64,000 bases of DNA from Sulfuricaulis limicola. GTDB taxonomy: Bacteria > Pseudomonadota > Gammaproteobacteria > Acidiferrobacterales > Sulfurifustaceae. Shown piece after piece: positions 4,122 through 34,875 of the stretch. Made by a program: the position numbers and the translations under genes. The stretch's first letter is position 1, and each line of letters opens with the position of its first letter. The notes under the pieces were generated by a model that saw nothing but the letters and a program-made list of their open reading frames with translations, searched no databases and was not told the origin of the DNA. The DNA lies in the NCBI RefSeq assembly GCF_002355735.1, contig NZ_AP014879.1, positions 1,302,001 through 1,366,000 on the forward strand. Reading direction: 5' to 3'.

Positions 4122-5066
4122 ATGTCTTCTACCATTCTTCCACCTGCCATTTTCCTCATGGGCCCCACGGCGGCGGGGAAGACCGCGCTTGCACTGGAGC
4201 TGCACGATGCATTCCCGCTGGAAATCATCAGCGTGGACTCGTCGCAGGTATATCGCGGCATGGACATCGGCACCGCCAAGCCCACGCCGGCGGAACAGGC
4301 GCGCGCGCCGCACCGCTTGATCGACATCCGCGATCCCGCCGAGGGTTATTCGGCCGCGGAATTTTGCGCCGATGCCTTGCGCGAGATGGAAGCCATCACG
4401 CGTGCCGGCAAAATTCCGCTGCTCGCCGGCGGCACCATGTTCTATTTTCATGCGCTGGAATTCGGGCTGTCCGATCTGCCGTCCGCCGATCCGGAAATTC
4501 GCGAACGTTTGAGTGCGGAGGCGGCGCAGAAGGGCTGGGAGGAGTTGCATCACCGGCTCCAGTCTGTCGATCCGGAGTCCGCGCGGCGAATACATCCTAA
4601 CGACGCCCAGCGCATCCAGCGTGCGCTCGAAATTTACGAGCTCACCGGCCAGTCCTTGAGCGATCTTTCCTCAAATAGCCAGAGGACTGCGCTGCCATAC
4701 CGTTTGATTAAAATCGCACTCTGGCCGCAGGACCGGAAGCAGTTGCACGCGCGCATCCAGCAACGTTTCCATGCCATGCTGGAGCAGGGTTTTTTACCGG
4801 AAGTGGAGAAACTTTATGCGCGTGGTGACCTCAAAGCCACGATGCCATCAATGCGCATGGTCGGTTACCGGCAGATATGGGAATACTTGACCGGAAAGAT
4901 CAACTATAGTGAAATGACCGAACAGGCACTGGCGGCGACGCGACAATTTGCCAAGCGGCAGATCACCTGGTTACGCAGTTATCCTGATATTCATGTGCTG
5001 GACAGCGCCGTTTCCCCGCCAATCAGGGAGAGTTCGGACTATTTAAGCGCCATGATCCGTCATTAG
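4122..5066 (+). CDS. miaA: tRNA dimethylallyltransferase
   Basis: Transfers a dimethylallyl group to N6 of A37 in tRNAs reading U-starting codons. The P-loop [15 protein letters not shown] is at residues 12-26, followed by the substrate-binding [17 protein letters not shown] and the conserved GGTMFY. At 314 residues it is full length. It starts just after a family A repeat and precedes hfq, the usual miaA-hfq-hflX order. The ATG at 4122 has no strong Shine-Dalgarno; no better in-frame start exists. Confidence 0.96.
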
Positions 5067-5447: not shown

Positions 5448-6767
5448 ATGAATTCTGCATCGGGGGCGCGCTCACGTGAGCGCGCTCTGTTGGTGCAGTT
5501 GCGCCTGTCCGGGCGGCTGGAGCCGGAGGTGCTGGAGGAATTGCGCCTGCTGGCGGTTTCCGCCGGCGCCGACGTCTGCGGTACCATCCTGGGTAGTCGC
5601 CAGGTACCGGATGCGGCGACCTTCGTCGGCAAGGGCAAGGCCGAGGAAATCCGCGATGTTGTGGCGCGCGAGCAGGCCGATCTCGTGCTCGTCAACCACG
5701 ATCTGTCGCCCGCGCAGGAACGTAATCTCGAAAAGATCGCCAATTGCCGCGTGCTCGATCGCACCGGCCTGATCCTGGATATCTTCGCGCAACGCGCGCA
5801 CTCCGCCGAAGGCAAGTTGCAGGTCGAGCTGGCCCAGCTGGAGCATATGTCCACACGCCTGGTGCGCGGGTGGACCCACCTCGGACGGCAAAAGGGCGGT
5901 ATCGGCCTGCGCGGTCCCGGCGAAACGCAGCTGGAAACCGACCGCCGCCTGATCCGCGACCGCATCAAGAAGCTCAACGAGCGCCTGGAGCAGGTGTCCG
6001 TCCAGCGCCGCAGCCGGCGCAAGGCGCGACACAAGGTTCCCATCCCCACCGTGTCCCTGGTGGGTTACACCAACGCCGGCAAGTCCTCGCTGTTTAACCG
6101 CCTGACCGCGTCCGCGGTGTATGCCGCCGATCAATTGTTCGCCACGCTTGACCCCACAATGCGGCGCATCGAGCTGCCGGGAAAGGCCTCGGTGATCCTG
6201 GGGGATACCGTGGGTTTCATCCGCCATCTGCCGCACGACCTGGTGGAGGCCTTCAAGTCAACGCTGGAAGAGGTGGCCGAGGCGGATCTGCTGTTGCACG
6301 TCGTCGATGCCGCCAATCCCGAGCGCCTGGACCAGATGCAGCAGGTGAACAACGTGCTGGCGGAGATCGAGGCGCAGTCGATTGCGCAAATAACGGTGTT
6401 CAACAAGATCGATCTGACCGGCGAAGCGCCGCGTTTCGAACGTGATGCCAATGGACATATTTCACGCGTGTGGGTGTCGGCGCGCACCGGCGAGGGCATG
6501 GACCTGCTGTTGCAGGCGCTGGCGGATCACTTCCGCCGTCACCGGCAACGTTACCGGTTCTGTCTCCCCCCGGAGGCCGGCCGGCTGCGCGCCGTTTTGT
6601 ATGAACGCTTCGACGTGATCCGCGAGACGGCGCCGGAGACCGGCGGCTGGATGCTGGAGCTGGCGCTGGAACCGGCCCAGCTGGCATGGCTGCGGCAACA
6701 GAGCGATTTTCGCGAGTCCTATCAGGTACCGGAAGCCGAGTCCATCCTTGCTCCCACCGGGTCCTGA
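5448..6767 (+). CDS. hflX: GTPase HflX, ribosome-associated
   Basis: HflX binds the 50S subunit and splits or rescues stalled ribosomes, especially after heat stress. The 439 residues contain the N-terminal nucleotide-binding HflX domain and the glycine-rich linker GRQKGGIGLRGPGETQLE. The G domain has GYTNAGKSSLFN (G1), DTVGFI (G3) and NKID (G4). ATG 5448 was chosen over the longer open frame because the extra 34 residues overlap hfq in another frame. It is probably co-transcribed with hfq. Confidence 0.95.
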   Translation: MNSASGARSRERALLVQLRLSGRLEPEVLEELRLLAVSAGADVCGTILGSRQVPDAATFVGKGKAEEIRDVVAREQADLVLVNHDLSPAQERNLEKIANCRVLDRTGLILDIFAQRAHSAEGKLQVELAQLEHMSTRLVRGWTHLGRQKGGIGLRGPGETQLETDRRLIRDRIKKLNERLEQVSVQRRSRRKARHKVPIPTVSLVGYTNAGKSSLFNRLTASAVYAADQLFATLDPTMRRIELPGKASVILGDTVGFIRHLPHDLVEAFKSTLEEVAEADLLLHVVDAANPERLDQMQQVNNVLAEIEAQSIAQITVFNKIDLTGEAPRFERDANGHISRVWVSARTGEGMDLLLQALADHFRRHRQRYRFCLPPEAGRLRAVLYERFDVIRETAPETGGWMLELALEPAQLAWLRQQSDFRESYQVPEAESILAPTGS

Positions 6768-32775: not shown

Positions 32776-32811
32776 GGTGACTTCTCTTTGCTCGTGCAAA
32801 GAGAAGTCACC
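32776..32811. repeat. Perfect 16-bp inverted repeat with TCGT loop
   Basis: GGTGACTTCTCTTTGC and GCAAAGAGAAGTCACC pair perfectly around TCGT, the strongest hairpin in the window. Similar palindromes followed by CAAGAGAAAGCACGCCC are common in xanthomonad-like genomes. Confidence 0.85.
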
Positions 32812-32961: not shown

Positions 32962-33148
32962 GCTACGGGGTGGGTTAGCAAAACCTTTGTGACTTCGAAT
33001 GGATTTGTAGAATTAATTGAGCCTGGCCCCTTTAATTCGACGGCCGCTCGCGACGGTTTTGAAGCATCCGCCGAACGCTACGGGGCGGTTAGCAAAACCT
33101 TAATTGAGCCTGGCCCCTTTAATTGGCCCCTTTAATTCGGGCCCCTTT
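32962..33148. repeat. Tandemly duplicated block with GGCCCCTTTAATT units
   Basis: CGCTACGGGGTGGGTTAGCA at 32962 recurs as CGCTACGGGGCGGTTAGCA at 33076. Each copy is followed by TTAATTGAGCCTGGCCCC plus TTTAATT, and the second adds two more CCCCTTTAATT units ending at 33148. No coding sequence is evident between 32621 and 33180. These units resemble sequences found beside Y1/REP-associated transposases, but no transposase is present. Confidence 0.7.
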
Positions 33149-33158
33149 AATTCTATTT

Positions 33159-33165
33159 GTTGGGC
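33159..33165 (-). other. Possible truncated attC (R'' core only)
   Basis: On the minus strand GCCCAAC, 15 bases after the stop of the 33181-33720 gene, fits the integron R'' consensus RYYYAAC. The rest of an attC is missing; GGCCCCTTTAATT repeats begin 10 bases further on. One 7-base match is weak evidence alone. Confidence 0.35.
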
Positions 33166-33180
33166 CGGCTGACCGATGCC

Positions 33181-33720
33181 TCATAAGAGCCCCTTGTGTT
33201 CCAGGGCTCTTTCGAGAAACTCGTGGCCTAATGCTAACTGTTCACTTCGCTTTTTCGTAGAAAGGCCGGGGAAGACCTTCTTCGACGTTATAACTGGTTC
33301 GGAGTCGTGACCGATTTTTTCTGGATAGAGGGCCAAATACCAGATCTGAAAAGCCTGCATCGAAAATGACAACTGATGACCTAGCTCACCGCACTCCAGG
33401 GACGCAACGAACAGCAGATGGTCATTCTCCTCTTCATCAAATGAAAGTGTCGAATCTGGGTCTCGATCGGCGTGTTTCAGATAGTTCTGCGCCGCATTGA
33501 GGACCTGTAGGGCATCCTTCTTACTCAGCCCAGAGTCTTCAACCATCTTGGTTCTCCAAGATGATCCTCGATTCTGATTCTCCGCAAGGTCGGCCAAGAT
33601 GCCGTGGGCTGCTGCGGCAAGTGTACGTACTGCGAGAGGATCCCCGTCCGTAAGTAGCAGGGCGATAGCAACATCAATCTGCCTTACCGCCGCCTCTCGT
33701 TTCGTGCATGTGACTTTCAT
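33181..33720 (-). CDS. Hypothetical protein in a gene cassette
   Basis: The 179-residue soluble protein is largely helical. Its start (TKREAAVRQIDVAIALLL, then LAVRTLAAAAHGILADLAE) and the motif NYLKHADRDPDS (79-90) look like a conserved family, but I cannot name it; a HEPN-like fold is only a guess. Its ATG lies 3 bases after GTTAGGC, the right-hand core of an attC-like site, exactly where integron cassette genes begin. The base composition is less GC-rich than in flanking genes, consistent with transfer. Confidence 0.75.
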   Translation of the reverse strand: MKVTCTKREAAVRQIDVAIALLLTDGDPLAVRTLAAAAHGILADLAENQNRGSSWRTKMVEDSGLSKKDALQVLNAAQNYLKHADRDPDSTLSFDEEENDHLLFVASLECGELGHQLSFSMQAFQIWYLALYPEKIGHDSEPVITSKKVFPGLSTKKRSEQLALGHEFLERALEHKGLL

Positions 33721-33723
33721 AGG

Positions 33724-33815
33724 GCCTAACGTTCCGGATGTGCGGCGCCGGCCACAGTAGCATCAGGAAACATGGCGCGTTGTCTCCGGCGTCCGCACGA
33801 GCCGGTTGTTTAGGT
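33724..33815 (-). other. Integron attC-like recombination site
   Basis: In minus-strand sense the 92 bases run from ACCTAAAC (R'', one base longer than RYYYAAC) to GTTAGGC (R', exact GTTRRRY). The inner arms, + strand 33734-33751 and 33786-33805, pair over 16 positions (CCGG, GTGCGG, CGCCGG) with one small internal loop and a single unpaired base, and enclose a 34-base variable loop. This is attC architecture, placed between two genes of the same direction. No integrase gene is in the window. Confidence 0.75.
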
Positions 33816-33841
33816 TCGCATCAAAAGTCTTGCAAAGATTG

Positions 33842-34729
33842 CTAAAGACTAGATACCAGTCGTCTTTGTATTTCATCATCGCTAACCGATACCCCAAGAC
33901 GTGGATTTAGAGCCCATTGCTGAGTATGCACAAGAATATTTCTTGCCTCTGAGCTGGACATGAAAGCAAATCGAACAATTGTTCCAATGATCTTGCGATT
34001 TCTTCGCGTATACACCTTCTGCCAAATATGGGAGAACTCCTTCATGAATTGATCCATCATCCGATCTACCGAACTCATGAGGGCAGTATCGTTCTCGCTA
34101 ACGAAAATCTTGTCACCCGCATTGAGAATCTTCGATATATCGAAAGCCACAATTCCGCGATGACCAGAACCTATCTGTCTTTTGAGAATGTCCTCCAGTT
34201 GTCTGGAGGCTTTTCGTGCATTGCTTTCGATCTTATTGGTCGTTGTTATTCGTTTGCATTCCACCCATATTTTCTTCCCGTCAATACTGATTCCGGTATC
34301 AGACTTAGCATCGAGAATTGTTGTAACGCCTTTGTCGGGACGGTAGGCTCTTGCGGCAACACTAGCTTCGAACAAAAAGTTTCGCGCAGTTGTTGAGTCA
34401 GGGGTTTCTTCCACCGCGTTTATCGGGCCATTTACCGCTTTCTGCAATTTTTCTGTGATTGATGTCAGCTGACCATTCGGAACCTCTTTAAGAGCGCTAT
34501 AAATACTCACAAAGTCGTAGATTTCGTATATTGAACTTACGAAGTCTGGAAATATTTTCTTCCCCTCTTCGGCTGAGGCTGTCTTGTACGTATCTTTCCA
34601 ATACCCGACGATCTTTTCATAGTGAGAGGTCCTCCCAGGACCAATCTTCACACCTATGTTCTTCATCCACGCAATCGCCGCTGAATATTGCGTATAGATT
34701 GCTTCAAATGACTCCGTTGGTATGTTCAC
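33842..34729 (-). CDS. Putative PD-(D/E)XK nuclease in a gene cassette
   Basis: The 295-residue protein has a candidate PD-(D/E)XK core: Glu121 in ARNFLFEASVAARA, Asp144 in DAKSDTGISI, and Glu157-Cys-Lys159 in IWVECKRI, then a helix RQLEDILKRQ and a strand RGIVAFDISK. The N-terminal 100 residues are helical with no match I know. It starts with GTG behind GTTAGGT, a GTTRRRY core, and ends 27 bases before the attC-like site. Lower GC than its neighbours. A DNA-targeting or anti-phage role is inference from fold and context. Confidence 0.7.
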   Translation of the reverse strand: MNIPTESFEAIYTQYSAAIAWMKNIGVKIGPGRTSHYEKIVGYWKDTYKTASAEEGKKIFPDFVSSIYEIYDFVSIYSALKEVPNGQLTSITEKLQKAVNGPINAVEETPDSTTARNFLFEASVAARAYRPDKGVTTILDAKSDTGISIDGKKIWVECKRITTTNKIESNARKASRQLEDILKRQIGSGHRGIVAFDISKILNAGDKIFVSENDTALMSSVDRMMDQFMKEFSHIWQKVYTRRNRKIIGTIVRFAFMSSSEARNILVHTQQWALNPRLGVSVSDDEIQRRLVSSL

Positions 34730-34764
34730 GCGAACCTAACTAGAAGTAGACAGCATAGAAACTT

Positions 34765-34822
34765 CCAGAAACAGTTTCCATATATAGAACCATGTTGCTA
34801 TATCCGTAAACATGTTTCTGGA
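34765..34822. promoter_or_regulatory. Two operator-like palindromes over the nuclease promoter
   Basis: Palindrome 1 is GAAACAGTTTC (34768-34778). Palindrome 2 is TCCGTAAACATGTTTCTGGA (34803-34822), with a perfect AAACATGTTT centre; centres are about 40 bases apart. Between them on the minus strand lie TATATA (34781-34786) and an 18-base spacer from TTTACG. This gives a promoter with one site over the -35 box and one near the start point, as in repression. No regulator gene is adjacent. Confidence 0.55.
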
Positions 34823-34875
34823 TTTGGAACCATTTAACGCTTTGAAATCCGGAATTAAAGGGCTAGGCTCAGATT

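Follow-up and report, generated by a model that had tools for sequence, protein, structure and literature searches.

In sequenced genomes, arrays of integron cassettes that lack an adjoining integrase gene turn up about as often as complete integrons, and it has been proposed that they are integrons in decay (PMC9024848). They are usually called CALINs (clusters of attC sites lacking an integron-integrase) when they carry at least two attC sites (PMC9024848). In Xanthomonas, CALINs are found at conserved loci away from intI, and it is stated that a functional IntI can mobilize them in trans (PMC12444791). Integrase-less arrays, mobilization in trans and conserved CALIN positions are thus already known. 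By comparison, attI sites outside class 1 are poorly described and are not searched for by IntegronFinder (PMC9024848). Since the standard tool ignores them, integrons whose docking sites are distributed over a chromosome would have gone unnoticed.

The genome examined here (G000, a single contig C1 of 2.86 Mb) resembles three described systems. As in CALINs, cassettes lie without an adjoining intI at loci that are conserved between species; however, each of these integrase-less arrays opens with an attI or attI-like site. As in sedentary chromosomal integrons, an SOS-type intI, an attI and attC arrays are all chromosomal, but small arrays occupy seven places of the chromosome instead of forming one array at intI. 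In a known prophage case, an attI heads an integrase-less array in a genome that also carries an intI-linked attI of the same type, as here. However, that case involves one extra attI in a prophage, whereas here several orphan attI sites are chromosomal, are found at orthologous loci across the genus and belong to arrays that have identical cassettes in common. Among open-licence papers, we found no description of genomes in which several orphan attI platforms are inherited vertically. We consider that this chromosome is probably a multi-site integron, in which one intI serves scattered attI docking sites in trans and one docked cassette encodes a putative PD-(D/E)XK nuclease (gene 1).

The two-cassette array of the window

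The window is the whole stretch of 64 kb that was analyzed. The sequence-only reading had described two minus-strand genes, each right after a GTTRRRY core, with a 92-bp element between them and a truncated R'' after the second. All of these were found (Table 1), the cores being GTTAGGT at 34740-34734(-) and GTTAGGC at 33730-33724(-) and the remnant being GCCCAAC at 33165-33159(-).

Table 1. Features of the cassette array and of its borders (positions in the window)
Feature	Position	Strand	Basis
AT-rich leader from the tfoX-like gene to attI; candidate Pc location	34757..34875	-	position only
attI core (TATGCTGTCTACTTCTAGTTAGG, then T)	34734..34756	-	attI matrix and exact GTCTACTTYTAGTTRGGY match
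Cassette insertion point	within GTTAGGT 34734-34740	-	inside attI core
Cassette 1 gene (gene 1), 295 aa, putative PD-(D/E)XK nuclease (E121, D144, E157, K159)	33842..34729	-	
attC of cassette 1; R' GTTAGGC, R'' ACCTAAAC (surplus A)	33724..33815	-	covariance model
Cassette 2 gene (gene 2), 179 aa, fold unpredicted, probably helical	33181..33720	-	72-73% identical relative in L050
GCCCAAC, R'' remnant of cassette 2 attC, remainder missing	33159..33165	-	sequence
AATTAAAGGGGCCAGGCTCAATTAA repeats in place of the remainder of the second attC	33013..33158	-	direct repeats

Since a search of the window against Rfam at gathering thresholds returned one tRNA and nothing else, a purpose-built attC covariance model (R1) was used, made from 22 attCs of G000, its relatives and contig L008, with the window attC left out. 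Its only match in the 64 kb was 33724-33815(-) (47.4 bits, E=4.6e-9). A simple scan for cores plus fold had given many chance matches in GC-rich DNA and was replaced by this model. Over ~90 bp, the intI-linked array of G000 has an attC that is 89-90% identical to the matched site. Therefore, the attC architecture proposed from the letters alone stands, except that R'' has a surplus A (ACCTAAAC versus RYYYAAC).

Cassette 1 has the makeup of an integron gene cassette: 3' of its gene lies an attC that has R''/R' cores and inner arms able to pair. Furthermore, its R'' (GCGAACCTAA) is the reverse complement of the first bases of the cassette (TTAGGTTCGC), so that one attC would be restored in the circular cassette, as expected if the attC is the cassette's own. 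The surplus R'' base may nevertheless impair the mobility of cassette 1. The GC content of its gene is 44%, versus 62% for the window. The start of cassette 2 (GTTAGGC) fits its own R'' remnant with one difference. Of its attC, R'' alone is left, followed by short repeats; AATTAAAGGGGCCAGGCTCAATTAA has four copies genome-wide when up to 2 mismatches are allowed. On this structure we regard cassette 2 as now locked in, its attC having been cut off. With one complete attC and an R'' remnant, the window array falls short of the CALIN definition (at least 2 attC, no nearby intI); the array at C1:1981k, with 7 attC, falls within it. In the intergenic region downstream of the cassettes, 16-bp arms around a 4-bp loop (GGTGACTTCTCTTTGC / GCAAAGAGAAGTCACC) form a perfect inverted repeat (32776-32811).

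The predicted structure of gene 2 (pLDDT 50) is too poor for use, and a PHROGs search gave nothing significant. Its best relative, 72-73% identical, is found on the phage contig L050 between two attC (4920-4997 and 5547-5625). We read this region as a phage-borne cassette array: right after the portal gene, positions 4343-7313 of L050 (IMGVR_UViG_3300037524_001804) contain three matches to the attC model and several cassette-like genes.

The GTTAGGT that precedes gene 1 is, on its sequence, the end of an attI and not of an attC. To score such sites, a matrix was derived from 11 intI-linked attIs of G000 and relatives, orphan sites being kept out because circularity was to be avoided. The window site ranks first in 104 kb on both strands (26.5 bits; 16.3 for the second and 9.8 for the third). 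The resident intI-linked attI ends with GTCTACTTTTAGTTGGGC and the window reads GTCTACTTCTAGTTAGGT. The 18-mer GTCTACTTYTAGTTRGGY has three exact matches in the 2.86-Mb genome, namely the intI-linked attI, the window and C1:2181k, and a further match with one mismatch at C1:1981k. A 17-mer has four exact matches in G000, and the reversed-pattern control gave 0 even with 1 mismatch. The matrix rank and the 18-mer matches rule out a chance GTTRRRY before gene 1.

Resemblance to the other attI sites of this type (class A, see below) is confined to ~23 bp; the rest of the upstream sequence is not alignable to the ~150-bp class-A unit. Pc and the palindrome are unrecognizable upstream of the window attI (14.2 bits), and sigma-70 or consensus promoter prediction gave no match at this site or in the leader. 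TTG-17-TAAAAT-like elements were read by eye at other class-A sites. Immediately ahead of the attI core, most class-A units (for instance, L023:5437-5505 and L073:1501-1568) have an inverted repeat that resembles TGTCGYTTTATAAARCGACA; this repeat is absent at the window site.

As in a complete integron, the window array is headed by an attI; no intI adjoins it. The window indeed lacks any integrase, as had been noticed, and the only one of the genome is at C1:434318-435259. The earlier description of a stranded cassette group holds for cassette 2, whose attC is cut after R''. For the array as a whole it is too narrow, because an attI heads this array and, elsewhere in the genome, there are an intact intI and further integrase-less arrays that have an attI at their head.

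The resident integrase gene and the attI sites of the chromosome

A single intact IntI scored above the family cut-off (485.6 bits, no stops); its gene lies ~0.9 Mb from the window array. A LexA-type box (ACTGTATAAATATACAGT) adjoins it on the upstream side, where the resident attI lies as well. The gene directly 3' of intI on the same strand is, judged by eye, presumably lexA, encoding the SOS repressor. The order intI then lexA-like gene is seen in L012:8594-10308 (G000 C1:433.6-435.3 kb). The integrase gene and this lexA-like gene, its likely regulator, may be co-transcribed.

The attC model detected 18 strong attCs in G000. The intI array (C1:434-438 kb) has 6-7 of them, C1:1977-1980k has 7, and 817k, 1336k (the window), 2094k, 2181k and 2233k have one each, the 817k array having an additional weaker attC. 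Hence, six arrays lack an integrase gene (C1:817k, 1336k, 1981k, 2094k, 2181k and 2233k), and at the head of each of them stands an attI or attI-like site. Three types were distinguished. The sites at 1981k and 2181k share a ~150-bp unit with the intI-linked attI (class A), of which the window shares the core only. Class-A orphan sites have a conserved 69-bp attI unit, with 89% mean column identity. The units of 817k and 2233k (class B) are 91% identical to each other over 151 bp. The head of the 2094k array is of a third, weaker type (class C) that scores 1.3 bits with the matrix and, by eye, is like the intI-linked attIs of G031 and G020. At this 2094-kb locus (L068), the single attC follows a gene with a PEP-CTERM-like product end and lies beside a Xer-like recombinase gene.

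The class-B unit adjoins an intI in G007, at a gene that we take by eye to be dcd. In G000, the dcd locus has an attI and no intI. Loss of intI is therefore one origin of orphan sites.

When searched with a sequence model, six further drafts of the genus also proved to carry class-A units, as did one more genome of the family. An intI above threshold was detected in two of the eight relatives of the genus that were searched, a count that is to be read with the reserve that drafts may miss intI. G000 and G011 are complete genomes and are free of this weakness. Three class-A loci are orthologous between species: the 1981k locus in G000, G005 and G001, a hemolysin-III-like locus in G007, G006 and G003 (degraded in G000) and a third one in G006, G005, G007, G003 and G001. 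No intI is present at any of these three loci. The first genes after the core differ between species at orthologous orphan sites; where first ORFs were found at well-kept cores, they begin 6-25 bases past the core. In G011, which belongs to another genus and has two intIs, attC clusters without intI are found at six places; the heads of three of them score 21-26 bits and a fourth head is probable by eye. The genome of G006 (99% complete) has two strong class-A units (C6:46873 and C5:41234), each followed by attC, and no integron integrase above threshold. A full LexA-type box is present at the intI-linked site of G000 and, of the two units of G006, at C6:46873; the other class-A sites have its second half only.

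Probable origin and proposed use of the orphan attI sites

The intI array and the 1981k array, which lie 1.54 Mb apart, have two cassettes (405 bp and 628 bp) in common at 100% identity, and both of these end at GTT cores. In one array they follow each other directly; in the other, a further cassette stands between them, on which ground assembly duplication was rejected as the source of the shared copies. The two cassettes apparently represent the trace expected of IntI-mediated movement to or from the 1981k array. This sharing might predate a loss of activity, but the 100% identity argues for recent movement. The cassettes of the window have no duplicate in other arrays of the genome. One of the duplicated cassettes (L012:10824-11450 and L023:2002-2629, identical in the intI array and the orphan array) looks by eye like a BrnT/BrnA-type toxin-antitoxin pair.

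In the mechanism that we propose, the single SOS-type intI gene would supply an IntI acting in trans. This IntI would take circular cassettes folded at the bottom strand of attC and would insert each one at the GTT of any attI, resident or orphan, that it recognizes. Orphan sites would be, at least in part, what is left of older complete integrons after loss of intI. Recombination in trans and its extension to the shorter attI of the window are inferred from these sequences, and class-B and class-C sites may not be recognized by the resident IntI. More broadly, it seems reasonably likely that the integron is distributed over the chromosome, attI platforms devoid of intI being inherited at fixed loci across the genus as long-lived docking sites, so that many arrays without intI would be working outposts and not relics.

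Alternatively, separate complete integrons might each have lost their intI and left orphan sites as fossils at which cassette exchange has ceased. The loss of intI at the dcd locus agrees with this view, the occurrence of three attI types in one genome suggests several past integrons, and decay is visible in the truncated second attC of the window and in one degraded class-A site (L091). However, fossils would not be expected to share two core-ended, 100% identical cassettes with the intI array, to be followed at orthologous intI-less positions by cassettes that differ by species, or to keep a conserved 69-bp unit. We therefore consider it unlikely that the orphan sites are only dead relics. 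For the window, it could also be argued that the cassettes landed near tfoX at an ordinary secondary site of the attG type and not at an attI. Insertions at attG are known for integrons (cited in PMC12444791). The sequence upstream of the window core cannot be aligned to other attI units, and the array is absent from the tfoX relatives. A comparison with related genomes, made in search of an empty site, showed that their tfoX locus is not syntenic with the window. Nevertheless, a secondary site is expected to share just a few bases around the insertion point, whereas the window has attI-type sequence well beyond the crossover bases: nothing else in 104 kb matches attI as well as its 23-bp core, and the same degenerate 18-mer recurs exactly at the intI-linked attI and at C1:2181k. 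This makes insertion at an attG very improbable.

If many arrays without intI carry an attI that is still used by a distant IntI, the unit of integron evolution would be the whole chromosome. Several places could then receive cassettes simultaneously and perhaps also allow their expression. Furthermore, comparing the heads of intI-linked and orphan arrays provides a route to defining attI outside class 1.

The putative nuclease of cassette 1

A nuclease core had been proposed for gene 1 from its translation, and structure prediction bears this out. The AF2 model (pTM 0.85) has an alpha-beta-beta-beta-alpha-beta core, predicted to be of the PD-(D/E)XK type, with the named residues in place. Helix 113-128, which carries E121, is followed by strands 135-138, 145-149 and 152-160, helix 164-184 and strand 191-197; D144 comes directly before strand 145-149, and E157 and K159 are inside strand 152-160. 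The model hence combines the core of the PD-(D/E)XK superfamily with its D and (D/E)xK residues. The order of core elements and the E...D...ExK series are those of superfamily members such as XisH (2inb), NucS (2vld) and Card1/Can2; unlike these, gene 1 has its own long helical N-terminal part and no significant sequence similarity to them. Six relatives with 47-69% identity were found on genome contigs, and E121, D144, E157 and K159 are invariant in the 7 aligned members.

Foldseek matches to gene 1 belong mostly to the same superfamily (XisH, NucS, Card1, Can2 and Nt.BspD6I) and are weak, the best of these having a probability of 0.93 and E=7.5e-3; no PDB fold match reached E <= 0.001. Searches against Pfam, NCBIfam, PADLOC and PDB sequences gave no significant match to a nuclease family. 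Matches in a viral fold library were also weak, some of them being restriction endonucleases or PD-(D/E)XK proteins. From the model, the product of gene 1 is most likely a metal-dependent PD-(D/E)XK DNA nuclease of no named family.

The gene is rare in the class (3 of 368 other genomes), and no relatives were found in plasmids, phages or viral contigs. In agreement with the cassette reading, homologues of both genes lie next to attC (see above for gene 2 and L050). The relatives of gene 1 that are flanked by or adjoin attC are found in L008 (a Legionellaceae MAG), in L118 (G247, attC on both sides) and in L120 (G387, a fragment). Those of L006, L007, L009 and L010 are without attC flanks.

The chances are about even that gene 1 is a restriction-like barrier to phages, the neighbourhoods of its homologues giving only a hint of defence. 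A PD-(D/E)XK-fold protein with a role in DNA repair or in a mobile element is possible too, at somewhat less than an even chance. The weak closest folds include NucS/EndoMS repair endonucleases, XisH-type element-excision factors and CRISPR ancillary nucleases. In PADLOC, neither gene 1 nor gene 2 matched any family up to E=1, and the L006 relative stands alone between apparent housekeeping genes. Conversely, patchy presence and low GC better suit an accessory gene, and the gene is carried as a cassette or beside attC in four places, including the window. The integrase/HNH-type neighbourhood in L010 likewise speaks against a repair or element role: there, a phage-type integrase precedes the relative, as does a protein that resembles CBASS endonuclease effectors at its N-terminus. 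This undescribed family, which recurs as a cassette, is a reasonable candidate for a phage-defence screen. In L009, the relative overlaps by 4 bases the gene of a 1197-aa TPR protein.
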